Assembly (NCBI RefSeq): GCF_003226255.1
Contig: NZ_QJST01000011.1
Span: 1 to 64,000 of the forward strand
Direction: 5' to 3'
DNA length: 64,000 nucleotides
Origin: Idiomarina fontislapidosi
GTDB lineage: Bacteria; Pseudomonadota; Gammaproteobacteria; Enterobacterales; Alteromonadaceae
The notes under the pieces were generated by a model. That model was not told where the DNA came from. It did not search any database and was given only the letters and a program-made list of their open reading frames with translations. The position numbers were made by a program, and so were the translations under genes. Below are positions 1 through 18,578 of the stretch, in pieces (the stretch's first letter is position 1; every line of letters starts with the position of its first letter).

Positions 1-609
1 GGTGGTTTATTTACTCACCTTCGCCACCGGTTAAGACGCTATAGAAAACGCCTGCACAAGCAGCGTGGTCGCATTTTAGGCCGCCGCTCGATACACGATC
101 GGCCTGCAATTATTGATGACCGAGAACGCTACGGCGACTGGGAAATTGATACTGTTATCGGCAAGCGCGGAACCGGAGCTATCGTTACGCTTTTAGAGCG
201 TAAAAGCCGATTTTATCTCGTGAAAAAAGTCACAAGTAAACACGCTGATGCCGTTGCTGACGCGACTATAGAAATGCTGCAGCCCTTTAAAGCTCTGGTT
301 CACAGCATTACGGCCGACAACGGTTTAGAATTCGCGGGTCATGAACGAATTGCAAAAGAGCTCGAGACCGACGTTTATTTTGCTGACCCGTATGCTTCTT
401 ATCAGCGCGGCGCGAACGAAAATGCGAACGGCTTATTGCGTCAATACGTGCCAAAAGGTACTGATTTGAGCACTGTAACCAACGAGCTGATGGCTAAATA
501 CCAGCAGCGCTTGAATTTACGTCCCAGGAAAACACTGGGCTTTATTCAGCCAGACATAATTTTTAAAGAGCAATTGCAACACGCTAAGAGCGAGTGTTGC
601 AGTTATTAG
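1..609 (+). CDS. IS30-family transposase, 5' truncated by window edge
   Basis: The reading frame is open from base 1, so the gene starts outside the window; about 202 residues are visible. They cover the DDE integrase-like catalytic domain of IS30-type transposases: WEIDTVIG contains the first Asp, TADNGLEF the second, and RGANENANGLLRQYVPKG the catalytic Glu region. A first in-frame Met-like GTG occurs at 220, but it lies inside the domain and is not the start. The enzyme cuts and joins the ends of its own element. The N-terminal helix-turn-helix is missing only because the sequence begins here. Family assignment is firm; whether the element is intact cannot be judged. Confidence 0.92.
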   Translation, partial: GGLFTHLRHRLRRYRKRLHKQRGRILGRRSIHDRPAIIDDRERYGDWEIDTVIGKRGTGAIVTLLERKSRFYLVKKVTSKHADAVADATIEMLQPFKALVHSITADNGLEFAGHERIAKELETDVYFADPYASYQRGANENANGLLRQYVPKGTDLSTVTNELMAKYQQRLNLRPRKTLGFIQPDIIFKEQLQHAKSECCSY

Positions 610-937: not shown

Positions 938-1561
938 ATGACTCAAACGACACAAACAGCCCTAATTAGCAGCATTGCCGACGTACGAACTGGGTATACG
1001 TTTAGAGAACGCATAAGTGAGAACAAACACGGTAATGCTCATGTTCTGCAACTCAAAGATGCTAGGCAGATATGGGAACAAACAAACTCGGCTACGATTA
1101 ACGTCGACAAGCTACCCAGAATCTTTTGGGATGGAAAAAGTAAAGCGTTCGCCGAGCCTAACAGTATTTTGCTCCCATCTAAGGGGAGCTACTTGAGAGC
1201 ATCAAAGCTTGTATCAAATCAGGACAGTTTGCCTACTGTAGTTAGTGGGCAATTTCTGACATTGAAAGTTAAAGACAGCGCTAAGCAGCATATTCACTCT
1301 GACTATTTATGTTGGGTATTGAATCAGCCTGAAACCCAAAGGCTTCTCGCTGAATCTAGTCAAGGCACCAAGATTATGATGCTCAGTGCTAAAGCAGTGA
1401 AAGATGTAACGATTAAAATTCCATCGCTGGAAACCCAGACAAAAGTAATGCATCTTAACGAGATGTGGGAAAAGGAACAAAAGCTGATTAATGAACTCCT
1501 GATTAACCGCCAAAAAATGGTTCAAGGGACAGTTCAGCAGTTACTCAAGGAGACGAATTAA
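938..1561 (+). CDS. hsdS: Half-size Type I restriction specificity subunit (one TRD)
   Basis: A 207-residue protein with one target-recognition domain (about residues 8-170) followed by a coiled-coil-like conserved segment ending NRQKMVQGTVQQLLKE, the usual HsdS spacer helix. Typical HsdS proteins are about 400 residues with two such units, so this is a half-subunit that would have to dimerise to recognise a two-part, probably palindromic site. Its stop is one base from the hsdM start, so the two are translationally coupled. A second, full-length hsdS lies 2.5 kb downstream in the same cluster. It could alternatively be a truncated relic, but the frame is intact and the ends look natural. Confidence 0.75.
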   Translation: MTQTTQTALISSIADVRTGYTFRERISENKHGNAHVLQLKDARQIWEQTNSATINVDKLPRIFWDGKSKAFAEPNSILLPSKGSYLRASKLVSNQDSLPTVVSGQFLTLKVKDSAKQHIHSDYLCWVLNQPETQRLLAESSQGTKIMMLSAKAVKDVTIKIPSLETQTKVMHLNEMWEKEQKLINELLINRQKMVQGTVQQLLKETN

Positions 1562-1562
1562 A

Positions 1563-3110
1563 ATGACTCACGAAAAAGCAATTAGCCAGGACAGCATCAA
1601 TAAAGCACTCTGGAACGCTTGTGACACCTTTCGCGGTACAGTCAGTGCCGACACCTATAAAGACTTTATTCTGACCACCCTCTTCCTCAAATATATATCT
1701 GATGTATGGCAGGACCATTACGACCAATATGCAGAACAGTATGGTGATGAGCCTGAGCTCATCGAAGAAATGATGAAGAACGAGCGCTTTGTGTTGCCTC
1801 GCGACGCCAGCTTTTATGCGCTCTATGACCGTCGCTACGAGCCGGGTAATGGCGAACGTATTGACCAAGCATTGCATGCTATCGAGGAAGCCAACGGCAC
1901 CAAGCTTAAAGATGCCGGTAAAAGTGTGTTCCAGGACATCAGCTTTAACACCGATAAACTAGGCGAAGAAAAGCAGAAAAACGACATCCTTCGTCATCTT
2001 TTGGAAGACTTTGCCAAACCAGAGCTGAATTTAAAACCAAGCCGCGTTGGCTCGCTGGATGTTATCGGTAACGCCTACGAATATCTGATTAAACACTTTG
2101 CCGCTAGCGGTGGCCAAAAAGCCGGTGAGTTTTATACCCCACCCGAAATATCCGACTTAATTGCCGAGCTACTCGACCCGCAACCCGGAGACAGCATTTG
2201 TGACCCGGCCTGTGGCTCTGGCTCTTTATTGATGAAGTGCGGCCGTAAAGTTGTCTCAAATCACGACAGTAAAGAGTATGCCCTGTTCGGTCAGGAAGCT
2301 ATCGGCTCCACCTGGTCGTTAGCCAAAATGAACATGTTTCTGCATGGCGAGGACAACCACAAAATTGAATGGGGCGATACCATTCGCAATCCTAAGCTAT
2401 TGGATAAAAACGGCGACCTCATGCTGTTTGATATCGTGACCGCCAACCCACCCTTCAGCTTGGATAAATGGGGCCATGACGACGCGGAGAATGACAAATT
2501 CAGTCGCTTCCGTCGTGGCGTACCACCAAAAACCAAAGGCGACTACGCGTTTATCCTCCACATGATAGAAACGCTGAAGCCCGGCAGTGGGCGTATGGGT
2601 GTGGTGGTTCCACATGGCGTATTGTTCCGCGGCTCCAAAGAAGGCAAAATTCGTCAGCAACTGATTGATGAGAACCTGCTAGACGCCGTTATCGGTCTAC
2701 CGGAGAAGCTTTTCTACGGCACCGGCATCCCAGCCGCTATTTTGGTCTTTAAAAAATCCAAGTCGGACGAGAGTGTATTATTCATCGATGCCTCTCGTGA
2801 ATTTAAATCAGGTAAAAACCAAAACCAGCTAAACGACGACAACATTAAGAAAATCGTAGATACATACCGCAGCCGTGAAACCATCGACAAATACTCGTAC
2901 CTGGCAACACTCGAAGAAATTCAGGAAAACGACTACAACCTGAACATCCCCCGCTACGTCGATACTTTCGAAGAGGAAGAAGAAATCGATTTGATGGCAG
3001 TGCGAGCTGAACGCCAAAAGCTAAAAGCCGAACTAGATGAGCTCGAAAGCCAGATGGAGAAATATCTCGAAGAACTGGGATATCAAAGCACTTTAACCCA
3101 AGGACAGTAG
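1563..3110 (+). CDS. hsdM: Type I restriction-modification DNA methyltransferase subunit
   Basis: A 515-residue N6-adenine methyltransferase subunit. An N-terminal HsdM helical domain (about 1-150) is followed by the catalytic domain. GEFYTPPEI precedes AdoMet-binding motif I DPACGSGSLL (about 214-223), and catalytic motif IV NPPF sits at 296-299. A charged coiled-coil C-terminus (EEEEEIDLMAVRAERQKL) would contact HsdS. An AAGGAG ribosome site lies within the end of the half-size hsdS. HsdM binds AdoMet and methylates adenine on both strands at the site chosen by HsdS; with two HsdS proteins nearby it may serve two specificities. All key motifs are present, so the enzyme should be active. Confidence 0.96.
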   Translation: MTHEKAISQDSINKALWNACDTFRGTVSADTYKDFILTTLFLKYISDVWQDHYDQYAEQYGDEPELIEEMMKNERFVLPRDASFYALYDRRYEPGNGERIDQALHAIEEANGTKLKDAGKSVFQDISFNTDKLGEEKQKNDILRHLLEDFAKPELNLKPSRVGSLDVIGNAYEYLIKHFAASGGQKAGEFYTPPEISDLIAELLDPQPGDSICDPACGSGSLLMKCGRKVVSNHDSKEYALFGQEAIGSTWSLAKMNMFLHGEDNHKIEWGDTIRNPKLLDKNGDLMLFDIVTANPPFSLDKWGHDDAENDKFSRFRRGVPPKTKGDYAFILHMIETLKPGSGRMGVVVPHGVLFRGSKEGKIRQQLIDENLLDAVIGLPEKLFYGTGIPAAILVFKKSKSDESVLFIDASREFKSGKNQNQLNDDNIKKIVDTYRSRETIDKYSYLATLEEIQENDYNLNIPRYVDTFEEEEEIDLMAVRAERQKLKAELDELESQMEKYLEELGYQSTLTQGQ

Positions 3111-3112
3111 CT

Positions 3113-3973
3113 ATGGAACAGCAACAAGTACAATTACTGACAACCACATTTGAAGGTCACGCACAACAAACGGAAAATGGCGTCGAATATTGGCTAGCCA
3201 GGGATCTGCAACACCTGCTTGGCTATGGTAAATGGGATAATTTCCAAAGTGTTATTTCCAAGGCCAAAACTGCCTGTGAGGTGAGCGGTCACGGGATCTC
3301 TGATCATTTTGCCGACGTCGGGAAAATGATAGAGCTAGGTAAAGGTGGACAGCGCGAGATTGATGACGTGATGCTCACCCGCTACGCCTGTTACCTCATT
3401 GCCCAAAATGGTGACTCGAGAAAGCAAGAAATAGCCTTTGCACAGACATATTTTGCAATGCAAACTCGAAAAGCCGAACTCATTGAGCAACGCCTTTTAG
3501 AGGCGGAACGCGTGCAGGCACGACAAAAACTGTCAGCAACCGAAAAAGAGCTTTCAAACCTTATCTACGAACAAACTGGTGGGAACGAAAACTTTGCCTT
3601 AATTCGAAGTAAAGGCGATACCGCTTTATATGGGCGCAATACTAAATCGATGAAAGCGCAATGGCAGGTTCCAGATAGTCGCCCATTAGCCGATTTTGCA
3701 CCCACCATTATTCTTAAAGCGAAAGACTTTGCCACAGAAATAACCATCCACAACGCTCGCACTAAAAACATGCAGCGCGAAACTGAAATATCGAGTGAGC
3801 ATGTGACTAATAACTCAGCCGTACGTCAGACATTACTCGACCGAGGCATTCGGCCAGAACATCTGCCCGCCGCTGAAGATGTAAAGAAGGTAGAGCGCCG
3901 ACTTGCGTCAGCGGAGAAAAAGTCGCTAAAAAATCCGGATAGACTGGATATCGAGGAAAACGATGATGAGTAA
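3113..3973 (+). CDS. dinD: DinD-like DNA-damage-inducible protein
   Basis: A 286-residue protein starting two bases after hsdM. The N-terminal half carries a BRO/KilA-like pattern (EYWLARDLQHLLGYGKWDNF, and later LTRYACYLIAQNGDSRK), followed by AFAQTYFAMQTR and a helical charged C-terminus; this combination is characteristic of DinD. Escherichia coli DinD is SOS-induced and affects RecA filaments. Here it is embedded in an R-M operon with no promoter gap before it, so control by LexA at this position is unlikely; it would be co-expressed with hsdM. A role in limiting recombination or SOS responses at restricted DNA is only inference. Confidence 0.85.
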   Translation: MEQQQVQLLTTTFEGHAQQTENGVEYWLARDLQHLLGYGKWDNFQSVISKAKTACEVSGHGISDHFADVGKMIELGKGGQREIDDVMLTRYACYLIAQNGDSRKQEIAFAQTYFAMQTRKAELIEQRLLEAERVQARQKLSATEKELSNLIYEQTGGNENFALIRSKGDTALYGRNTKSMKAQWQVPDSRPLADFAPTIILKAKDFATEITIHNARTKNMQRETEISSEHVTNNSAVRQTLLDRGIRPEHLPAAEDVKKVERRLASAEKKSLKNPDRLDIEENDDE

Positions 3974-4050
3974 AGTCATTAAATTAGTGGTGTATTCTAC
4001 AAATTCTAAGCCGTACTGTTGTTCTCTGAATTGCTATGGAGATTGCTGTT

Positions 4051-5274
4051 ATGGTGCCTGAAGGGTGGAAAAAAGGTGTTGTCGAGGATATTGCCGAAGT
4101 AAGCTCTGGTGGCACGCCAAGCAGGAAAAATGACTCATATTGGCTTAATGGGCAAATTCCCTGGGTGACAACAGCTGAGGTCAAGTTTGGTGTTATTACC
4201 AGTACAGAACAAAAAATAACAGAAGACGGCCTTAAAAACTCATCAGCAAAGCTCTTCCCTAAAGATACCGTATTAATAGCTATGTATGGGCAAGGTAAAA
4301 CTCGTGGTCAAGTTGCGAAATTGGGCATTGAAGCTTCCACAAATCAAGCGTGCGCTGCTCTACAGGTAAATGATGGATTTGAAGTTGATTACTATTATCA
4401 ATATTTAGTTAGTCAATATGAAAATATAAGAGATTTAGCAAACAGTGGTGGGCAGCAGAACTTGAGCGCAGCGATTATTAAAGGCATTCATGTTCCTATT
4501 CCTCCACTAAAGGAACAAAAGAAAATAGCCCAAATCCTCTCAACTTGGGATAAGGCCATCACCACCACAGAGCAACTGCTCGCCAACAGCCAGCATCGGA
4601 AAAAAGCCCTCATGCAACAACTGCTCACCGGCAAAAAACGTCTGCTGGATGAAAATGGTGTGCGGTTTAGTGGGGAATGGAAGACTGCTCATTTAGGAGA
4701 TATATGCACCGTAAATCCCAAGAAAGCAACGGAACCTGAAGGTAGCCAAGTTTCCTTTGTCGGTATGGATAGCGTTTCTGAAGAAGCAAGACTCATATAT
4801 ACAACAACCAAACATTATAATGAGGTCTCCAAAGGCTTCACCTCGTTCAAGAACGGCGATGTTTTGGTAGCTAAAATCACTCCCTGCTTCGAAAATGGTA
4901 AAGGTGCTTACGTTTACGGCTTAGTCAATGGAATAGGGTTTGGGAGCACTGAATTTCATGTTTTACGTGCCACTGAAAGGTCAAACTCCAAGTATTTGTA
5001 CTATTTGACAAATACAGCAGAATTTCGCATCCGAGGAGAAGCTAATATGCAAGGTTCTGCAGGTCAAAAACGAGTTTCGACCGACTACCTGAAGACATTC
5101 AAAGTAAAAATCCCGCCCTCGGTGAAAGAGCAAGCTAAAGTGGCAGAGTTATTATGGCAAGTAGATAAAGAGCTTTCTATTTTGGAAATAAAACTAGAGA
5201 AACTGCAGCAAGAGAAAAAAGCACTCATGCAACAGCTTCTAACTGGAAAGCGTAGGGTCAAAATAGAGAGCTAG
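4051..5274 (+). CDS. hsdS: Type I restriction specificity subunit, two TRDs
   Basis: About 407 residues. Start at 4051 is chosen because GGAGA (4038-4042) lies 8 bases upstream; an in-frame ATG at 4036 has no ribosome site. Two target-recognition domains are each introduced by a W...G / V..GGTPSR or W...LGDIC pattern and separated by spacer helices. The segment KKALMQQLLTGK occurs twice, once at the central spacer and once at the C-terminus, the classic internal duplication that fixes the distance between half-sites. HsdS directs HsdM and HsdR to a bipartite sequence. It follows dinD after a 77-base gap and is more AT-rich to the eye than hsdM. Confidence 0.93.
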   Translation: MVPEGWKKGVVEDIAEVSSGGTPSRKNDSYWLNGQIPWVTTAEVKFGVITSTEQKITEDGLKNSSAKLFPKDTVLIAMYGQGKTRGQVAKLGIEASTNQACAALQVNDGFEVDYYYQYLVSQYENIRDLANSGGQQNLSAAIIKGIHVPIPPLKEQKKIAQILSTWDKAITTTEQLLANSQHRKKALMQQLLTGKKRLLDENGVRFSGEWKTAHLGDICTVNPKKATEPEGSQVSFVGMDSVSEEARLIYTTTKHYNEVSKGFTSFKNGDVLVAKITPCFENGKGAYVYGLVNGIGFGSTEFHVLRATERSNSKYLYYLTNTAEFRIRGEANMQGSAGQKRVSTDYLKTFKVKIPPSVKEQAKVAELLWQVDKELSILEIKLEKLQQEKKALMQQLLTGKRRVKIES

Positions 5275-5278
5275 GTAG

Positions 5279-6049
5279 TTGAAGGTAACTTTCGATTCAA
5301 ACGTTTGGGAAAACATAGTGACGGCAGATAAAGCCGATAAATCAGTCTATGCCAACCTTCTGAAAAAAATTACTGATGGTACAGTCGAGCCTTATATTTG
5401 CATGATTGCTCTAACACTAGAGACAGTTGGGAAAAAAGAGCGTCTAGAACATAGAGCAAACTATTCTCTCGATTTACAGTTTTCAGATATATCAACCAAT
5501 ACGTCAAAAGTTGAAATGAGAGTAGCTGTTGGTCCAGAAGAGTCATCTAGGCCAACCATGACAGAACCGTTATCCCGTAAATTTGAGCTAGCGTATAAAC
5601 TCGGATTCAAGGTCCTAGCTATGACAAACTTTGGTACTCCAAGGGTGAGGGACGTGCCCGAATCTGCCATAGTGATACCTGACGATTATTGGGAATACGC
5701 TGAGAGGCTTTCAGAATGCTCCGATTTCATCGAGTCACTGGAATGTGGACGCTATAACTATAATTTATTAGTCAAAAAACTAGGACTTAGAATCCCCGTG
5801 TTTAAGCTTGAGAAGTTTATAAGTACTAAAGATAAGAAAGCATTTTCAAATGCTGTTGCCGAATGGGCTGACGGAGATTCTCTTGCTGCACATTATGCTT
5901 ATAACAACGACTATTTTTGCACTAACGATCAGGGTAAGAGTGCTGGAACTAAATCTGTTTTTCACCGCGATAACATCGGGCTACTCTCAGATAAGTTTGC
6001 CATACGCGTTGTGACAGCTAATGAGCTGTCAAGTTTACTGGGTAACTAA
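5279..6049 (+). CDS. PIN-like nuclease domain protein in the R-M operon
   Basis: A 256-residue protein, TTG start 4 bases after hsdS with GAGAG about 8 bases upstream. The N-terminus VTFDSNVW gives the first PIN acidic residue (D6) with a conserved N8; E48 is a plausible second acidic residue, and GDSLAAHYAYNNDYFCTNDQG (split here over residues 199-219) gives D200 and D217, matching the D-x-x-x-A ... T-x-D pattern of PIN nucleases. PIN proteins are metal-dependent RNases, best known as VapC toxins. This one is about twice VapC length and lacks an adjacent antitoxin. Co-transcription with hsdS suggests a role tied to restriction, but no function is known to me. Confidence 0.65.
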   Translation: MKVTFDSNVWENIVTADKADKSVYANLLKKITDGTVEPYICMIALTLETVGKKERLEHRANYSLDLQFSDISTNTSKVEMRVAVGPEESSRPTMTEPLSRKFELAYKLGFKVLAMTNFGTPRVRDVPESAIVIPDDYWEYAERLSECSDFIESLECGRYNYNLLVKKLGLRIPVFKLEKFISTKDKKAFSNAVAEWADGDSLAAHYAYNNDYFCTNDQGKSAGTKSVFHRDNIGLLSDKFAIRVVTANELSSLLGN

Positions 6050-6091
6050 GGTCAGCTCGTGAATCTAGATAAGCAACCAAGGAGCGGTTTA

Positions 6092-7108
6092 ATGAGTGAA
6101 AACGATTTAATTCTGTATACCACTGAAGATGGAAAATCGCGTCTGATATTAAAAGAGATCGATGGTCAAGTGTGGCTCTCTCAGCTTGAAATGGCTGAGC
6201 TTTATCAAACGTCGAAGCAGAATATTAGTAAGCATATTAAAACCATATTGTCAGAAGGAGAGCTGGCTGAAGAGGCAGTTGTCAACTCTAAGTTGACAAC
6301 TGCCAGCGATGGCAAAGAGTACCTGACACAGCTATACTCGCTACCCATGATCATTGCAGTTGGCTACCGGGTAAGATCCACTCGCGGTACGCAATTTCGC
6401 CAATGGGCAACCCAAACCTTAACTGAATACCTTGCAAAAGGTTTCGCGATGGACGATGAGCGCCTCAAAGATCCCAAATGGGATTACTTTGATGAGCTGC
6501 TTGAACGTATTCGCGATATACGCTCATCTGAAAAACGTTTTTACCAGCAGGTTCGCGACTTATTTACATTGGCTGAAGATTACCAAGCCAATACCAAAGA
6601 CACCCAGTTATTATTCGCCGAGGTGCAGAATAAGCTGTTCTTCGCGGTAACCGGAAAAACGGCTGCAGAGCTTATCGTAGCAAGGGCTGACGCCAATCAA
6701 CCTAACATGAACCTAACAAGCTTTTCTGGCAGCCGTGTACGCAAGGCCGACGTAGTGATTGCCAAGAACTACCTACACCAAAACGAACTCGAACAGCTGA
6801 ATCGGTTAGTTACCATGTTTTTTGATTTTGCTGAATTCCGAGCCAAAAACAAAGAACACCTGCGATTGGATGACTGGCGAGCTTTCGTCAACAAGTTCTT
6901 AGACTTTAATGAACAACCGTTGTTAAGTGGTGCTGGCCAGCTCAGCCGAAGCGATATGGAGCGTATAGTCCACCAACGCTACGATGCGTTTGACAGCAGC
7001 CGTAAACAACAGGAAGCACTTGAAGCCGATCATCAAGAGATGGAAGAGTTGAAACAGCTTGAAGCTCGATTGAAAAAGCAGCACTCTGGTAGTGATAAGA
7101 AAAAATAA
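6092..7108 (+). CDS. RhuM-family protein
   Basis: About 338 residues. Start 6092 is chosen because AAGGAG (6079-6084) stands 7 bases upstream; a GTG at 6059 would add 11 residues without a good site. The protein shows the RhuM/Bro-like N-terminal pattern VWLSQLEMAELYQTSKQNIS (helix-turn-helix-like) and YSLPMIIAVGYRVRSTRGTQFRQWA, then a long helical region and a charged, Lys-rich tail. RhuM proteins recur in Type I R-M loci between hsdS and hsdR and in Salmonella pathogenicity island 3; their biochemical role is undefined. Likely DNA-associated. It lies 17 bases before hsdR. Confidence 0.85.
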   Translation: MSENDLILYTTEDGKSRLILKEIDGQVWLSQLEMAELYQTSKQNISKHIKTILSEGELAEEAVVNSKLTTASDGKEYLTQLYSLPMIIAVGYRVRSTRGTQFRQWATQTLTEYLAKGFAMDDERLKDPKWDYFDELLERIRDIRSSEKRFYQQVRDLFTLAEDYQANTKDTQLLFAEVQNKLFFAVTGKTAAELIVARADANQPNMNLTSFSGSRVRKADVVIAKNYLHQNELEQLNRLVTMFFDFAEFRAKNKEHLRLDDWRAFVNKFLDFNEQPLLSGAGQLSRSDMERIVHQRYDAFDSSRKQQEALEADHQEMEELKQLEARLKKQHSGSDKKK

Positions 7109-7125
7109 TAAAGGAACCGTGTTAA

Positions 7126-10100
7126 ATGGATGTACGCAGCGTCCCAAAATTTCAGGAAGAATACGCCGCTAAAATACCGGCCATGACGCTATTGGCCGGT
7201 TTGGGGTGGTCATTTTTGTCGCCACAGGAAGCGCTGGCGTTGCGTGGTGGTAAACAGGACCGTGTGGTGCTGCGAGAAGTCTTACGCGATGTACTGAGCA
7301 AGCGTACCTTTCATTATGCCGGTAAACGCTACCCGCTGTCCGAAAACTCCATTGATAACATCGTCTCACACCTTTGCAGCCCGGCCCTTAATGAAGGGCT
7401 ACGCCACGCCAACGAAGCCATTTATAACCATTTAATGTACGGCATTCCGGTGACAGAGTTTGTCGACGGAAAAAAGGTCACGCCGACGGTCTCCATCATC
7501 GACTGGCAGAATCCAGACAACAACCAATTCCATTTCACCGAAGAATACACAGTAGCGCGTGCCGGTGGCTTTGACAGCCGCCGACCGGATCTGGTTTGTT
7601 TTGTTAATGGTCTGCCGCTGGTGGTCATTGAAGCCAAACGCCCGGACGGTAACGCGCAAAAAGGCCCAACGATAAACGAAGGCATTTCACAGAGCCTGCG
7701 TAACCAGCGCCCTGACGAAGTCCCTCACCTGTTTGCGTATTCGCAACTGTTGTTGTCGGTTAATGGCATTGATGGGCGTTATGGCACCGTAGAGACACCG
7801 GAAAAGTTCTGGGCCGCCTGGAAAGAAGAGGACATCAGCGATACTCAAATGTTGGCGCTAAAGAATAAGCCGCTGGACGATGCCACCCTTCAACATCTAT
7901 TCGACCACCGTGATAAGCGCGACCTCAGTTGGTATCAAAACCTGATTGCCGGTGGTGAGCTCATGGTAACGGGCCAGGATAAACTGCTGATAAGCCTACT
8001 GTCGAAAGAGCGCCTGTTCGATATGGTGCGCTACTTCACTATTTTTGATAAAAAAATCGGCAAGATTGTAGGCCGCTACCAGCAAGTGTTTGGCATCAAA
8101 CGTTTGCTTGAGCGTATTCAAAAACGCAACAGTAAAGGTGGTCGAGAAGGCGGCGTTATTTGGCATACTACCGGCTCGGGCAAGTCCTTCACCATGGTGT
8201 TTTTATCCAAAGCGCTGATTCTGCACGACGAGCTAAAACAATGCCGGGTGATTGTTGTGACCGACCGTGTTGATTTAGAAAACCAGCTCTCGAAGACCTT
8301 TACTTCCGGTGGCGAGTTGTCGAGTAAAAAAGACAAAGAAGCGGCAATGGCTACTTCCGGTAAGCGCCTAGCTCAGCAGATTGGTAAAGGTAATGAGCGC
8401 ATTATCTTCACGCTCATTCAGAAGTTTAACTCCGCCACCAAACTGCCCGAGTGCCATAACGACAGCCCGAATATTATCGTGCTGATTGACGAAGGCCACC
8501 GCAGTCAGGGCGGCGAGAACAACATTCGCATGAACCAGGCACTGCCAAACGCCTCCTTTGTAGCCTTTACCGGTACACCGCTATTAAAGGACGATAAAAC
8601 CACGAATAAATTCGGACCTATTGTTCACGCCTACACCATGCAGCGTGCGGTCGAAGATAAAACCGTCACCCCTCTGCTCTACGAAGAGCGTATACCCGAC
8701 CTGGATGTGAACGAACGCGCTATCGACGCCTGGTTTGAGCGTATGACGGACGGCTTAAGTGACGAGCAAAAAGGTGATTTAAAGAAAAAGTTCAGCCGCC
8801 GGGGTCAGGTGTATGGCACCGACGAACGAATTAAGCTGATCGCGTACGATATTGCTCATCACTTTGACAAAAACATCGATGAAGGTTTAAAAGGCCAGCT
8901 TTGCTGCGATAGCAAAGCCTCGGCCATTAAGTACAAAAAATACCTGGATGAAGTCGGCCTGTTTGAATCAGCCGTAGTCATGAGTTCACCCGATACCCGT
9001 GAAGGCAATACCTCGGTTGACGAGAAAACCATGCCGGAAGTCACTAAGTGGTGGAAGGATCATGTCGGCTCATCAGATGAACAGAATTACACCAAAGAGC
9101 TGGTTGAGCGATTTGATAAAGATCCTAAGCTGAAGCTGTTGATTGTGGTTGATAAGCTCTTAACCGGCTTTGATGAGCCTAAAAACGCCGTACTCTATAT
9201 CGACAAGCCACTAAAGGGACACAACCTCATTCAGGCGATTGCTCGGGTTAACCGCCTGCACCCCGACAAGAAATTTGGTCTGCTGATTGATTATCGCGGC
9301 ATTCTGTCCGAACTGGATACCACCATAAAGGAATATCAGGATCTTGCTTCACGTACACAGGGCGGTTACGACATCGATGATATTGATGGCCTTTACCAGC
9401 AAATGAGTACCGAGTACAAACGCCTACCCCAGCTTTATAAAGAGCTCTGGGCGATATTTGACGGTGTTAAGAATAAATCAGACACCGAAGCGCTGCGTCA
9501 TGCCCTGTTACCGCGCATGGAAGAAATGAACGGCGAGATGGTCGATAGAAATCAGAAACGCCGCGAAGACTTTTACGAAGCACTCACAGCCTTTGCCACT
9601 TGCCTTAAAGTTGCACTGCAGTCGGCTACCTTCTTTGAAGATAAGAGCTTTACCGATAAAGACCGTCGACAATACAAAGAGACAGTGAAACAACTGTCCA
9701 GTCTTCGTCAAACCGTGCAACAGGATTCCGGCGAGCGTGTCAGTTACGACGAGTACGCTCACGAGGTGAAAAAATTGCTGAATAAACACGTCGTTGGTGT
9801 CGAAGTACGTGATTCTGAGGGCGTGTACGAAGTAGGTAAAATGGGCCAGAAACAAACACCAGAAAACTGGAGCGAAGATAAAACCCGTAACGAAACCGAT
9901 ATCATTAAAACCCGCGTCACTAAAATGATTGAACAAGAGCTCGGTGACGATCCTTACGCTCAGGAAGCCTTTTCTAAACTATTGCGTGAAGCCATCGAAG
10001 AAGCGGAAAAGCTGTTTGATCACCCGCTGAAACAATACATGTTGTTCCGCGAGTTTGAGGAGCAGGTTAATGAGCGCCGCCTCGACGGTATCCCAGAACG

Positions 10101-10410
10101 CTTAAACGGCAATCATCATGCACAGGCCTACTACGGTGTGTTCAAGAAACACCTGCCCGAGGCGTTTACGGTGATGGATGAGCAGGCGCAGGATAAGTGG
10201 GTAAAGATTGCGTTCGATGTCGATAATATCGTCAGTCAGTCTGTTGCGGAAAATTCGATTAACCCGAATAACATTGAAGCTGATATTCGTAAAAAACTAC
10301 TGCCGAAGATTTTCGCGGAATGCAAAGCCGTCGGCGGCGGTATCGAACAGGCGAAAAAGATTGTCGAAGCCATTGTACAGGTGGTTCGTGTTGGACAATT
10401 GGGCCATTAA
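7126..10410 (+). CDS. hsdR: Type I restriction endonuclease subunit
   Basis: 1094 residues, usual HsdR size. The N-terminal PD-(D/E)xK nuclease shows RRPDLVCF (D155) and VVIEAKRPD (E169, K171). Two RecA-like motor domains follow: Walker A TTGSGKS (348-354), DEGH box (455-458), motif III FTGTP (about 482-486), and a later LLTGFDEPK / QAIARVNRLH pair. The C-terminal helical region would dock on HsdM-HsdS. The enzyme translocates unmethylated DNA using ATP and cleaves at a distance. AAGGAA (7111-7116) is its ribosome site. Every catalytic residue I can check is present. Confidence 0.97.
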   Translation: MDVRSVPKFQEEYAAKIPAMTLLAGLGWSFLSPQEALALRGGKQDRVVLREVLRDVLSKRTFHYAGKRYPLSENSIDNIVSHLCSPALNEGLRHANEAIYNHLMYGIPVTEFVDGKKVTPTVSIIDWQNPDNNQFHFTEEYTVARAGGFDSRRPDLVCFVNGLPLVVIEAKRPDGNAQKGPTINEGISQSLRNQRPDEVPHLFAYSQLLLSVNGIDGRYGTVETPEKFWAAWKEEDISDTQMLALKNKPLDDATLQHLFDHRDKRDLSWYQNLIAGGELMVTGQDKLLISLLSKERLFDMVRYFTIFDKKIGKIVGRYQQVFGIKRLLERIQKRNSKGGREGGVIWHTTGSGKSFTMVFLSKALILHDELKQCRVIVVTDRVDLENQLSKTFTSGGELSSKKDKEAAMATSGKRLAQQIGKGNERIIFTLIQKFNSATKLPECHNDSPNIIVLIDEGHRSQGGENNIRMNQALPNASFVAFTGTPLLKDDKTTNKFGPIVHAYTMQRAVEDKTVTPLLYEERIPDLDVNERAIDAWFERMTDGLSDEQKGDLKKKFSRRGQVYGTDERIKLIAYDIAHHFDKNIDEGLKGQLCCDSKASAIKYKKYLDEVGLFESAVVMSSPDTREGNTSVDEKTMPEVTKWWKDHVGSSDEQNYTKELVERFDKDPKLKLLIVVDKLLTGFDEPKNAVLYIDKPLKGHNLIQAIARVNRLHPDKKFGLLIDYRGILSELDTTIKEYQDLASRTQGGYDIDDIDGLYQQMSTEYKRLPQLYKELWAIFDGVKNKSDTEALRHALLPRMEEMNGEMVDRNQKRREDFYEALTAFATCLKVALQSATFFEDKSFTDKDRRQYKETVKQLSSLRQTVQQDSGERVSYDEYAHEVKKLLNKHVVGVEVRDSEGVYEVGKMGQKQTPENWSEDKTRNETDIIKTRVTKMIEQELGDDPYAQEAFSKLLREAIEEAEKLFDHPLKQYMLFREFEEQVNERRLDGIPERLNGNHHAQAYYGVFKKHLPEAFTVMDEQAQDKWVKIAFDVDNIVSQSVAENSINPNNIEADIRKKLLPKIFAECKAVGGGIEQAKKIVEAIVQVVRVGQLGH

Positions 10411-10413
10411 GCC

Positions 10414-11196
10414 ATGAGCGTTGCGATACGTTTTGCTGGGCAGGTTAGCGAAGAGCACAAACGGTATAGTAATAAGCTTGGCTTTTATTACTCTGACGAG
10501 TTGATTGAGTTTGAGCGCATTGCCGCCAACAGCCCTGACCGTAAAATCAAAATCAAAGTGTTGCCGGATTGTTCGGTGAAAGTCGCCGCACCGGTTGATA
10601 GCTCTGATGACGACGTATTGCGTGCGGCCAAAAAACGTGCGCGCTGGATTTACCAGCAACTGAGAGAGTTTCGTAAACAACTCACGCATATTACCCCACG
10701 CCGTTATGTCAGCGGTGAAAGCCATTACTACCTGGGCAAGCAATACGTACTCAAAGTGCTGATAAAACCCGACCAAGCAGCCGGTGTTAAGCTGTTGCGA
10801 GGCCAGCTTGAAGTCAACGTGCGTGAGTATACAACTGAGCGTGTAAAGGTAGCATTAGAAAGCTGGTATAAGGTGAAAGCCAAAGACGTCTTCCACAAGC
10901 GTTTAGACGCCGTTTTAGAGCAAGCACTGTGGGTTGATAAGCGCCCTCCTCTGCGAATACTCACCATGCAAACCCAATGGGGCAGCTGCTCACCGAACGG
11001 GCGAATCACCTTAAACCCTCTGCTGGTTAAAGCACCCCGCGAATGCATTGACTACGTCATACTGCACGAGCTTTGCCATATCGCTGAACACAACCACAGC
11101 GAACGGTTTTATCGGCTAATGGGACAGGTTATGCCGAATTGGGAGCGTGTTAAGGCTCGGCTGGACCAGATGGCTGGGCGGATTTTTAATGGGTAG
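10414..11196 (+). CDS. YgjP-type zinc metallopeptidase (DUF45/M48-like)
   Basis: 260 residues starting 3 bases after hsdR. The C-terminal half has TQWGSCSPNGRITLNP followed by zinc motif HELCHIAEHNHSERFY; this W-G-S-C / HExxH-x-x-x-x-H arrangement defines the YgjP/DUF45 family. Family members are common immediately downstream of hsdR, but substrates are not established. Because HsdR in some systems is controlled by proteolysis (ClpXP in E. coli restriction alleviation), a local protease regulating HsdR or the neighbouring PIN proteins is an attractive but unproven idea. Confidence 0.88.
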   Translation: MSVAIRFAGQVSEEHKRYSNKLGFYYSDELIEFERIAANSPDRKIKIKVLPDCSVKVAAPVDSSDDDVLRAAKKRARWIYQQLREFRKQLTHITPRRYVSGESHYYLGKQYVLKVLIKPDQAAGVKLLRGQLEVNVREYTTERVKVALESWYKVKAKDVFHKRLDAVLEQALWVDKRPPLRILTMQTQWGSCSPNGRITLNPLLVKAPRECIDYVILHELCHIAEHNHSERFYRLMGQVMPNWERVKARLDQMAGRIFNG

Positions 11197-11211
11197 GCTA
11201 AAGGTCAATTT

Positions 11212-12075
11212 ATGATACGGGTGCTCGTCGATAATGCCGTTTGGGACTGGGCGAACATACTTGATCCCGTGACTATATCAGTTAGCTCTGAGTTAAAAGA
11301 CCAACCCACGGAGACAATGTCAGGATACATGAGGAAGCAGCCACTGCTCGGTTCTGAAAAGTGGAAACAAGAAGAAATAGATTGGCTTCCAACGCTAGCA
11401 AAACTAAGTCAATCTGATGAAATCGCTTTATATACTTACAAGGAACTTCAATACGAAAGCTTGTTTAGGGGTGGTAGGCCCCGCGTTGGCAATATTTTTT
11501 CAGGTTGTTCTGTTTCATTTGTTGAACCAGCGATTGAAAGATCATGTTTTGTTGCCCAAGACTTATTGAAGCATGCTAAAGCAGAAGAAAAAATGAGTTT
11601 TTGTCAGAAATTGCTCGATTGGGCAGATACCCGACAAACTATCTTCGAGCAGTCGCGACACACATTTCCCATCCTCACCCAGCAATCCCTAAATGACTTA
11701 AAGAGGTTTAAAGAGATATGTGCGGGTCTCTCGCATGAACAGAGGCAAGACGCTTTTCATCTATGGACTGCGGAGGTAAACGGGATGCATTACTTTTTAA
11801 CAGTCGATAAAAAATTCATGAATGCAATGACGAAATCCAAGCCTAAGCGATTTCAATTAAAATCCCAACCAGTCTTGCCTAGTGGGTTGGTTAGTGCGCT
11901 CGGAATAACTGAGCAAAACCCCTATCGATATTTGAGTAATGACTTTATAAGTTACGATGGTAAAGCTATTAGGGTTAGAGACATAAAAACTCCGAAACGA
12001 ACGCATGCACTATTTAATCTGAGACACAACTTAATGCTTTGGTTAAAAGCTAAACTTACCTCAAATAAGAAGTAG
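11212..12075 (+). CDS. Second PIN-like protein of the R-M operon
   Basis: 287 residues, starting 15 bases after the protease gene. N-terminal VLVDNAVWDW (D7) resembles the PIN opening strand; E78 or E82 in KELQYESLFRGG could be the second acidic site; QDAFHLWTAEVNGMHYFLTV-D-K (D180, D199) resembles the helix-strand-T-x-D end of PIN domains. A region of about 80 residues separates these motifs from the first half, and a basic tail of roughly 80 residues (TPKRTHALFNLRHNL) follows. It shares little sequence with the PIN-like protein at 5279-6049, so it is not a recent duplicate. Assignment is by motif pattern only. Confidence 0.55.
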   Translation: MIRVLVDNAVWDWANILDPVTISVSSELKDQPTETMSGYMRKQPLLGSEKWKQEEIDWLPTLAKLSQSDEIALYTYKELQYESLFRGGRPRVGNIFSGCSVSFVEPAIERSCFVAQDLLKHAKAEEKMSFCQKLLDWADTRQTIFEQSRHTFPILTQQSLNDLKRFKEICAGLSHEQRQDAFHLWTAEVNGMHYFLTVDKKFMNAMTKSKPKRFQLKSQPVLPSGLVSALGITEQNPYRYLSNDFISYDGKAIRVRDIKTPKRTHALFNLRHNLMLWLKAKLTSNKK

Positions 12076-12081
12076 CTCTAT

Positions 12082-13083
12082 ATGAAAATCGGTCGCAATG
12101 AGCCCTGCCCCTGCGGCAGCGGTAAAAAATATAAGCGTTGTTGCATGAGTGCTGTTGGTAAGCAGCATGCTGACTTTGTTGATAGCATCGAGCAGATGTT
12201 AGCAATGAATCCTGATCTTTCAATGGACGAGCTGAATGTTATCGCCGAGCACCAATCCAATAAAATTAATAACACGCCTCACAAAGACTTCTGTGGCCTG
12301 ACGCCTGGGCAAATCAATAATTGGCTCTATGCGCCTTTTTCCGAGTTAGACGGCGTTAGGGTAAATACGCCCCCTGATTTAAGCACCAGTCCGTTCATGC
12401 GTTATTTAGAACTGATGTTGGAGACCGCATTAGCTAACGGTGGGCAGATTAAGGCGACCGCCAAAGGGAACCTCCCGGCGGCGCTAGTGAAAGAAGCCAG
12501 CGCATTTTTACCCGAGTTTGCTGTTGCTCCATTCGAGCGGGCCATCAGCATTAGTGAATTCGCAGGTGCCAATGAAGACAAGTTTAACGCACTGCATTAC
12601 TGCCGTGTTCTTGCAGAAATAGCAGGTATTTTTAAGCTAAAAAGCAATAAATTTCACGTCTCAGCCTGGGCTAAACGGCAATACCAGCAAGCTGGCCTGG
12701 AATCGTTTTTCCCCATCATGCTAGAAACAGCCATTTACAAATACAATTGGGGTTATTTTGACCTTTGGGAAGACGAAATTCCGCTACAGCAATTTTGGCT
12801 ATTCATGGTTTGGCGACTTCAGCATCATGAGTCTCACGAACGGTTGGTGGATGAGATGATTCAGGCATTCCCTGATTTGCTCAATGAACTCAACGAGGAA
12901 GAGTACATGTCGGATGGAGACAAGTTCGCAGTTTTGATTGAGTCACGCTTTATTCATCGCTTTCTGCAATTCTTTGGATTTGTCATGGTTGACCCTAGGC
13001 GGTTCCTTGATGGTAAAAGGGTCGCTCCCCAAGTCACCTGCCTGCGTTTATTTCATGAAACGTTTGAGTTTGCAGTTAGTTAA
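12082..13083 (+). CDS. SEC-C zinc-motif protein of unknown function
   Basis: 333 residues. The N-terminus GRNEPCPCGSGKKYKRCC is the SEC-C zinc-binding motif first known from the SecA C-terminus, where it binds SecB or ribosomes. The rest is a mostly helical, acidic protein with a recurrent pattern GLTPGQINNWLYAPF and KATAKGNLPAALV that I recall from other uncharacterised SEC-C proteins. It is the last gene of the R-M cluster (6 bases after the second PIN-like gene), before a hairpin at 13097-13128. Function is not known. Confidence 0.7.
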   Translation: MKIGRNEPCPCGSGKKYKRCCMSAVGKQHADFVDSIEQMLAMNPDLSMDELNVIAEHQSNKINNTPHKDFCGLTPGQINNWLYAPFSELDGVRVNTPPDLSTSPFMRYLELMLETALANGGQIKATAKGNLPAALVKEASAFLPEFAVAPFERAISISEFAGANEDKFNALHYCRVLAEIAGIFKLKSNKFHVSAWAKRQYQQAGLESFFPIMLETAIYKYNWGYFDLWEDEIPLQQFWLFMVWRLQHHESHERLVDEMIQAFPDLLNELNEEEYMSDGDKFAVLIESRFIHRFLQFFGFVMVDPRRFLDGKRVAPQVTCLRLFHETFEFAVS

Positions 13084-13096
13084 ATTAAAGAAACCT

Positions 13097-13128
13097 AACA
13101 GGCGAGAATTACCCTTTCCTCGCCTGTT
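13097..13128 (+). terminator. Hairpin closing the R-M operon
   Basis: A perfect 10-bp inverted repeat (AACAGGCGAG / CTCGCCTGTT) with a 12-nt loop lies 14 bases after the SEC-C gene and just before the convergent lipoprotein gene. The U-tract is weak on both strands, so termination efficiency is uncertain. Confidence 0.55.
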
Positions 13129-14135: not shown

Positions 14136-14522
14136 TTACAACTCTAACTCGACAAAGTCGCGATCAACATCTTCTTGGGTTATTCCTATGTAACGCAACG
14201 TCACAGCTTCCGAGCTATGACGCAGCATCTTCATTACCCTGGCAATGTCGTTGGTGTTCTTATAAAGGTGATAACCTCGGGTCTTTCGCATTGAATGAGT
14301 TCCCAGTTTAATGGTTGCGTGTTTCGACGTCTTCCCTTCAATCAGAGTCAGACGCTCGTCGTGTATGTTTTCAAACTTGATAGATAGTAAATCTGAGATC
14401 CTTAACGTTAGGTTCAAGCCGACATCCCAAACGTCGGCGATTTGCTGACCGTATGTTCGTTTGAGAAGGTAGCTAATCAGCCTTACGGTATCCAGATCTT
14501 TAACCGCTTGTACCTAGGCCAT
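14136..14522 (-). pseudogene. Tyrosine recombinase (integrase) with internal deletion and early stop
   Basis: The ATG at 14522 is followed by GCC TAG, then VQAVKDLDTVRLISYLLKR, and continues in frame to the stop at 14136. The N-terminal part (GLNLTLRISDLLSIKF) and the end (LGTHSMRKTRGYHLY, MLRHSSEAVTLRYIG) are those of a widespread gammaproteobacterial integrase of about 180 residues that normally begins MAKVQAVKD. Two lesions show: codon 3 is TAG where Lys (AAG) is expected, and roughly 55 residues are missing between ATIK and LGTHSMRK. The catalytic HxxR and Tyr remain. A shortened protein could start at 14417, but it would lack part of the catalytic core. Confidence 0.8.
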
Positions 14523-18218: not shown

Positions 18219-18578
18219 TGGTGGAGCTGGCGGGAGTTGAACCCGCGTCCGCAATACCTACATCCTCGGTCCTACATGCTTATTCAGTCTTTTTATTAAC
18301 CAGCATGACGCCGACTGACAGGCTTCAACTACTGGCGAGTCCGATTAAGTTTAACGCTTCAGCTCCGGACAAAGCATCCACGCGAGTCTACCTTAGGTCG
18401 AGCCATCCTGATCCAGTCTCGTAGACAAAGCGCTGGGGGACGGGCTTAGCGGGTTATTAAGCCGCTAGAGCGTAGTTGTCGTCGTTTGCAACTATAACGT
18501 TGAGGCTTTTTACGAGGCCAGCCTCACCTCGGCATGCACCTTGGGTTTCGTGTATCCCGTCGAATCCAAATCAGCCCC
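18219..18578 (-). ncRNA. ssrA: Transfer-messenger RNA (tmRNA)
   Basis: Minus-strand RNA of 360 nt. The 5' end GGGGCTGATTTGGATTCGAC and the 3' end with T-arm, acceptor CAGCTCCA and encoded CCA (18219-18221) are canonical for one-piece tmRNA. The tag reading frame (18489 down to 18457) encodes ANDDNYALAA followed by two stop codons TAA TAA. tmRNA with SmpB rescues stalled ribosomes and marks the peptide for proteolysis. A strong terminator follows. The 3' end is also the likely attachment site of the adjacent island, which has kept the gene intact. Confidence 0.97.

Follow-up and report, generated by a model that had tools for sequence, protein, structure and literature searches.

A group of ten genes near the start of contig NZ_QJST01000011.1 of Idiomarina fontislapidosi (assembly GCF_003226255.1; positions 1 to 64,000 of the contig, the whole stretch being called here the window) is very probably a Type I restriction-modification (R-M) operon whose constant core has gathered five unrelated, independently acting accessory genes, as far as comparison of sequences can tell. 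The core would consist of HsdM, HsdS, HsdR and a YgjP-like peptidase, often with a half-length HsdS (half-HsdS) in front, and the accessory genes would sit at three insertion points, with dinD between hsdM and hsdS, PIN1 (encoding a 256-residue protein) and rhuM between hsdS and hsdR, and PIN2 (encoding a 287-residue protein) and a SEC-C motif gene behind the peptidase. The ORF list of the window (ORF, open reading frame) contains all ten frames intact on the + strand between positions 938 and 13083 (Table 1), with gaps of 1, 2, 62, 4, 9, 17, 3, 15 and 6 bases in succession, at most 17 in eight of the nine and the 62 bases preceding hsdS, which bears out the gene limits and the co-directional layout, with gaps mostly under 20 bases, given in a preliminary description of this DNA. 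Scans of the Pfam, PADLOC and NCBIfam libraries, the source of the family labels of the window proteins, likewise agreed with that description on half-HsdS (a single Methylase_S stretch), HsdM, DinD, HsdS, RhuM, HsdR, YgjP and the SEC-C motif, and the locus holds a Type I R-M set, in which hsdM is joined by an hsdS that has two recognition stretches and an hsdR that has HSDR_N and motor domains. From the spacing, the ten genes are likely to form one transcript; a promoter scan gave 15 promoter-like sites against a shuffle mean of 20.7, hence no excess, and a hairpin behind the SEC-C gene scores as terminator-like for the − strand only.

The constancy of the core can be seen in relatives of the R-M genes. 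The HsdR searches covered class and order samples of 274 and 148 genomes, together with plasmid and Escherichia coli collections, and 32 HsdR-family loci were opened, 20 from the class and order samples and 12 hand-picked plasmid and E. coli records chosen for diversity out of 591 and 846 matching ones. The class sample contributed 11 of its 12 best HsdR places (at least 627 bits, the window's own aside; G254 was omitted, with a contig of 6.9 kb), its weaker HsdR places of other subtypes being left out, and the order sample contributed all nine of its places. ORFs of these loci were labelled by blastp against the window proteins. In 27 of the 32, hsdM, hsdS and hsdR are all in view, and these complete loci form the basis of the slot count below (L054, L061, L072, L075 and L082 are incomplete and outside it); L013 and L081 are near-duplicates, and hsdS is fragmented in L056 and L079. 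A gene for an M48/YgjP peptidase adjoins hsdR in the window and directly follows it in all 32 relatives, at gaps of −11 to +33 bases, even in loci whose hsdS-hsdR gap is empty (L076, L078 and L080). The peptidase is a part of the operon core and no passenger; of the six passenger genes counted in the preliminary description, five stand as accessory, and YgjP does not, given its place after hsdR in every relative. Local proteolytic control of HsdR by this peptidase is an idea that one may entertain.

Half-HsdS recurs as well, directly upstream of hsdM in 18 of the 27 complete relatives (L012, L053, L055-L060, L062, L065-L068, L071, L073, L076, L077 and L079), where it has 190-213 residues and lies at most 62 bases away or overlaps. 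Together with the protein of the window these make a set of 19, in which 170 of the 171 pairs could be aligned with a median identity of 30%, and the profile of the set matches all 27 HsdS. Half-HsdS as mere debris was ruled out by this mutual alignability. It could provide a second, symmetric specificity, or regulation; symmetric specificity from half subunits is known for engineered HsdS. A separate function stays undemonstrated, since the half-HsdS proteins are still homologous to halves of HsdS. When the whole operon was compared with plasmids by megablast, the matches listed (10 of 15) covered only hsdM or hsdR.

Whereas the core is conserved, the slots vary in content, and some are empty. 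Of the 27 complete loci, 22 have an ORF of 120 residues or more between hsdS and hsdR and five have none; among these five, the three named above have 20-30 bases between the two genes. The slot ORFs (n = 37) were called mechanically; counted among them are a piece of hsdS (L079), a Tn3-type transposase (L081) and, in L062, two ORFs that lie opposite a larger one. The cargo of this gap comprises a cyclase of the type found in CBASS (cyclic-oligonucleotide-based antiphage signalling systems), with a two-transmembrane effector in L073 and a 194-residue ORF in L070; OLD-like and other AAA ATPases (L060, L062, L068 and L077); KAP ATPase (L055 and L066); Abi_2 with a NucS/YhcG-like nuclease (L012) or with DUF4917 (L053); YhcG (L069); a deaminase with a PADLOC dCTPase match (L064); DUF6933 (L067); DUF6161 (L079); RhuM (L057 and L068); and a YecA-type protein (L013, L063, L074 and L081), of which only a 19-residue motif matches the SEC-C protein of the window. 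The slot ORFs of L059, L065 and L071 bear no family label, the cargo of L065 being without a Pfam match, and ahead of hsdR in L054, one of the incomplete loci, stand an AAA ATPase and a PtuB-like protein. A RhuM homologue is found inside the operon in five of the 32 relatives, in L059, L060 and L062 between hsdM and hsdS, and DinD in one (L060), likewise in the hsdM-hsdS gap. Behind the peptidase, a mechanical rule found a co-directional ORF at most 80 bases away in 6 of 32 (L061, L062, L063, L066, L074 and L075); the one in L061 is apparently spurious, since it faces a longer ORF. Unrelated, varying genes thus occupy the hsdS-hsdR gap among relatives, as is typical of embedded cargo, and the gap is a cargo slot for differing genes, several of which are known or candidate defence genes. 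Because this slot, and in some loci the place behind the peptidase, carry unrelated genes elsewhere, gene order alone is uninformative about pairing, and the suggestion of the preliminary description that each R-M subunit has its own PIN partner within one system was not upheld, conserved linkage being absent as well in the genomes searched.

Base composition is in line with these slots. In the window, G+C content at third codon positions (GC3) is 0.55 in hsdM, hsdR and the peptidase gene, and 0.36 in PIN1, 0.40 in PIN2, 0.44 in dinD, 0.47 in rhuM and 0.49 in the SEC-C gene, lower values that fit separate origins of the accessory genes. In the relatives, 31 of the 37 slot ORFs lie below their own core (mean difference −0.085), and the peptidase differs from the core by −0.030 on average (19 of 27 below; Mann-Whitney p 0.01 against slot ORFs, the loci not being independent).

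Two of the accessory genes had been put forward as PIN-like nucleases, which held for PIN1 through invariant acids, a structure model and a fold match, whereas PIN2 is a candidate by motif only, its model having failed. Neither protein has a PIN model or anything else above the curated cut-offs of Pfam, PADLOC and NCBIfam. The TTG start of PIN1 is supported, because its first residue lines up with M1 in the relatives, and residues D6, E48, D198 and D217 are invariant across the 16 rows of an alignment that omits five of 20 genome loci (L097, L098, L100, L101 and L102, which are split, partial or short, L102 amounting to 34 residues without an ORF match). The AlphaFold model of PIN1 is confident (predicted local distance difference test score, pLDDT, 89.6) and places D6 after strand 2-5, E48 in helix 42-50 behind strand 37-41, D198 in helix 183-207, and D217 after strand 212-214, which we take to be the layout of a PIN nuclease. 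The top viral fold match of the model is a protein annotated as 'PIN like domain' (probability 0.98, E 6.4e-3, template modelling score 0.39). Foldseek against the PDB gave nothing at E 0.001 or better, a glycerate kinase ranking first, a cyclodipeptide synthase second, an archaeal proteinaceous RNase P third and a mycobacterial toxin-antitoxin complex tenth; a sequence search of solved structures had no match for PIN1, and phage and viral sequence searches returned nothing useful. On alignment and model, PIN1 is likely to be a PIN-like nuclease.

The relatives of PIN1 live mostly elsewhere than in R-M operons. They occur in 11 plasmid records (tblastn, 22-28% identity), and in all six records opened the relative is apart from any hsd operon, with conjugation, insertion-sequence, arsenic, methyltransferase or toxin-antitoxin genes as neighbours. 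A scan of 84,980 species genomes recovered the 20 loci, from several phyla, none of them inside an hsd operon and one (L100) with Type I genes in its flank, about 4.3 kb off and with an HsdM 26% identical; in 11 of the 20, each flank is at least 3 kb long. Neither RhuM nor the peptidase has a match near the relatives at these 20 loci. Among 321 ORFs of at least 60 residues within 2 kb, one cross-locus pair was alike at E 1e-4, and no conserved antitoxin-type neighbour emerged from this comparison, several of the contigs being short. In the class sample there was one partial PIN1 match in 273 other genomes and, with a profile, one in 247. Profiles of PIN1 and PIN2 had no match at E 0.001 among the 1887 ORFs of the 32 R-M loci; the best below threshold were a 75-residue ORF of L079 outside the operon (E 0.0043, 38 columns, without the expected acids) and an ORF labelled HsdS (E 0.066). 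A conserved ten-gene system was rejected on this ground, with PIN1 and PIN2 in none of the 32 relatives. The preliminary description had named a lack of conserved linkage to hsd genes as grounds for refuting its idea, and in the genomes searched no such linkage was found for either PIN gene, which goes against the idea.

PIN2 is a candidate PIN-like protein by its motif. Of three aligned relatives, two retain the acids D7, E78, D180 and D199, and the other covers mainly the C-terminal part and has E in place of D199. Its fold is unproven, because the single-sequence structure model failed (pLDDT 34.6), and the sequence search of solved structures gave one match, at E 0.13. A mutual relationship of PIN1 and PIN2 was considered and rejected (hhalign probability 0.2%). 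Four distant relatives of PIN2 were found in the phylum sample (4 of 348 other genomes), none with hsd or SEC-C genes nearby, one contig being just 3.3 kb, and a transposase gene adjoins two of the three that have long flanks. There were none in plasmids, phages, viral contigs or the class sample, nor in the scan of 84,980 genomes, which uses single-sequence patterns and reaches close relatives only.

In the mechanism that we propose, restriction would be the first line and the accessory genes a second line of defence, sharing the expression of the operon and acting alone. PIN1 would be a one-gene, auto-inhibited RNase in which a phage cue turns on RNA cutting, stopping the infected cell, a mode of action proposed for DS-3. 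By analogy, it most likely works like DS-3, which is described as a one-protein PIN defence with a domain split between the ends, no antitoxin, and loss of defence on mutation of the active site (PMC13092281). The acids of PIN1 are split alike, D6 and E48 at one end and D198 and D217 at the other, a likeness of layout; PIN1 lies inside a Type I operon, a location that the passages on DS-3 do not name for it. PIN2 probably has a similar mode of action, its link to SEC-C being unproven, and the two are most likely independent accessory nucleases.

Several points weigh against independent cargo. In the window, hsdS (GC3 0.39) and half-HsdS (0.44) deviate as much as the accessory genes, so that composition alone is no marker of cargo, and the differences are modest. 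On an A. pomorum plasmid (L006), the PIN1 relative comes about 2.4 kb after the end of an operon with the same R-M core, mazEF and an HNH gene lying in between, and on another plasmid (L004) the relative is near a DNA methyltransferase gene; loose company of PIN1 relatives with restriction genes therefore does occur. Nine of the 20 genome loci show less than 3 kb on one side or more, identity to the relatives is mostly 22-31%, and genomes beyond those searched could contain a closer subfamily that is linked to hsd. Furthermore, translational coupling is possible across gaps of a few bases, and in this lineage the whole operon may be selected as a set.

Another reading is a guard system in the manner of EcoprrI and PrrC, in which the R-M complex would hold PIN1, PIN2 or both latent until phage inhibition of restriction releases the RNase. 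PrrC is an NTPase-fused anticodon nuclease and not a PIN protein. For a guard speak the operon that the PIN genes share with hsd at small gaps, the nuclease acids of PIN1, the plasmid relative found 2.4 kb away from an R-M operon of this core, and the precedent of PrrC, embedded in the prrABD operon (PMC3874165). However, PIN1 and PIN2 were not found in any of the 32 relatives of the same core, the hsdS-hsdR slot takes many unrelated genes, and PIN1 relatives are mostly apart from Type I genes (in five of six opened plasmids and, as far as the flanks reach, in 19 of 20 genome loci) and therefore do not need that complex. The conserved linkage of an RNase gene to hsd genes, of the PrrC type, fails for PIN1 and PIN2 in these comparisons, one loose plasmid co-location aside, and the guarding of the R-M complex by a PIN RNase, as the preliminary description had it, gains no support from linkage and is very unlikely. 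It is just as improbable that PIN1 or PIN2 would be a latent RNase sensing Type I failure, held by HsdS, or by HsdR together with the peptidase, until the blocking or destruction of the complex by a phage sets it free, or, in a weaker form, that the YgjP peptidase, fixed behind hsdR, would be the switch. If true, the operon would be a two-stage device for restriction and then suicide, with a PIN effector replacing PrrC.

Toxin-antitoxin pairs retained as addiction modules, with RhuM as the partner of PIN1 and SEC-C as that of PIN2, for instance, are equally hard to credit. It is in their favour that another gene starts within 9 bases after each PIN gene, that a SEC-C relative stands directly behind a HipA gene on the one Acinetobacter plasmid opened of nine, and that VapC toxins are the best-characterised setting of PIN domains (PMC13092281), but RhuM is near none of the 20 PIN1 relatives, which share no recurrent neighbour, SEC-C is near none of the four PIN2 relatives, and the neighbours of SEC-C relatives vary. 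The accessory genes might also be transient, mostly functionless passengers from mobile elements, without a selected role in the operon. The contig does open inside a transposase that is presumably of IS30 type, an integrase remnant follows the operon, and transposase genes are found by PIN2 relatives; yet all ten frames are intact, PIN1 retains every predicted catalytic acid, and the slots of relatives carry several known or candidate defence genes, which leaves this reading unlikely.

That defence genes can be embedded in Type I operons has already been published (PMC12255303, PMC11411939, PMC3874165), and the gene set described here is a combination of parts, not a system. In the RRDM island of enteropathogenic E. 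coli, which is made up of RptR, a Type I R-M system, DarTG2 and M48, the report places DarTG2 between hsdS and hsdR and the M48 gene behind hsdR, and its authors regard the hsdS-hsdR site as a potential recombination hotspot (PMC12255303). The likeness lies in unrelated defence genes in that gap and an M48-family peptidase gene downstream. The cargo differs, being DarTG2 there and dinD, PIN1, rhuM, PIN2 and SEC-C here, as does the first gene, a 79-residue repressor RptR there and here the 207-residue half-HsdS, preceded by a 92-residue ORF without a Pfam match. TgvAB has its place inside a Type I operon on the Vibrio cholerae pathogenicity island VPI-2 (PMC11411939), and is alike in that independent defence genes are nested in a Type I operon and occur outside it too; unlike the genes here, TgvAB is a Type IV, GmrSD-like system without a PIN nuclease. 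EcoprrI-PrrC shares an RNase gene within a Type I operon, predicted here and known there (PMC3874165), whereas no parallel to the sequestration of PrrC by the R-M complex has emerged here. A literature search on PIN with Type I operons, judged by titles and abstract openings, did not find this gene set described, which leaves its absence unproven. A 2024 preprint by Payne et al. reportedly has embedded defences as its subject. Type I operons would thus again be seen as docking sites for unrelated defence genes, with two added candidates that Pfam, PADLOC and NCBIfam all miss: a split PIN-like family, whose 20 relatives are spread over several phyla, and a second PIN-like family that is rarer. 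The constant parts, a peptidase behind hsdR and a frequent half-HsdS before hsdM, would be better targets for understanding how the enzyme is controlled.

The remaining accessory proteins can be traced outside the operon to varying degree. Full-length relatives of the SEC-C protein (56-58% identity) occur in 10 plasmid records, and in the two plasmids opened one is directly behind the HipA gene (Acinetobacter) and one stands alone (Pseudoalteromonas). A search for distant relatives with the SEC-C motif left out found them in 8 of 273 other genomes; the stretches fetched around them, three of which are below 5 kb, carry no hsd label. By these comparisons the SEC-C protein appears as another travelling gene. 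In three loci a distant relative (L123, 7923-9047; L126, 2965-3990; L127, 1416-2438) is followed after 6 bases by a 417-residue gene, with a weak tetratricopeptide repeat (TPR) match in L123, a possible conserved pair. RhuM belongs to PADLOC family PDC-S05 and DinD to PDC-S13, PDC standing for phage defence candidate.

Table 1. Coordinates of the operon genes and of nearby features in the window
Feature	Position	Strand	Description
half-HsdS	938..1561	+	207 aa, single target-recognition domain; upstream of hsdM
hsdM, N6-adenine methyltransferase	1563..3110	+	515 aa; core
dinD-like	3113..3973	+	286 aa; PRK11525, Bro-N, PADLOC PDC-S13; accessory, hsdM-hsdS gap
hsdS	4036..5274	+	412 aa; two Methylase_S stretches; core
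PIN1, predicted PIN-like metal-dependent nuclease	5279..6049	+	256 aa, TTG start; accessory, hsdS-hsdR gap
rhuM-like	6059..7108	+	349 aa, GTG start; PADLOC PDC-S05; accessory, hsdS-hsdR gap
hsdR	7126..10410	+	1094 aa; core
YgjP-like / M48 (SprT-like) metallopeptidase	10414..11196	+	260 aa; core
PIN2, candidate PIN-like nuclease by motif only	11212..12075	+	287 aa; accessory, behind peptidase
SEC-C motif protein	12082..13083	+	333 aa; accessory, behind PIN2
hairpin	13097-13128		behind SEC-C gene
tmRNA gene	18219-18578		beyond operon and recombinase fragment

A remnant of the C-terminal part of a tyrosine recombinase (integrase) lies at 14136-14417, between the operon and the transfer-messenger RNA (tmRNA) gene. 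The window and the genome each contain the 3′ end of this gene once only, and therefore no attachment-site repeat, and with it no island boundary at this gene, was found. On the other side, the contig opens inside an apparent transposase (window 1-609), a 129-residue piece without a Pfam match that is presumably of IS30 type, and the left edge of the region is accordingly an assembly break. Just ahead of the operon, at 610-888, is the 92-residue ORF mentioned above, which to our eye resembles small Cas2-like or SinR-type proteins.

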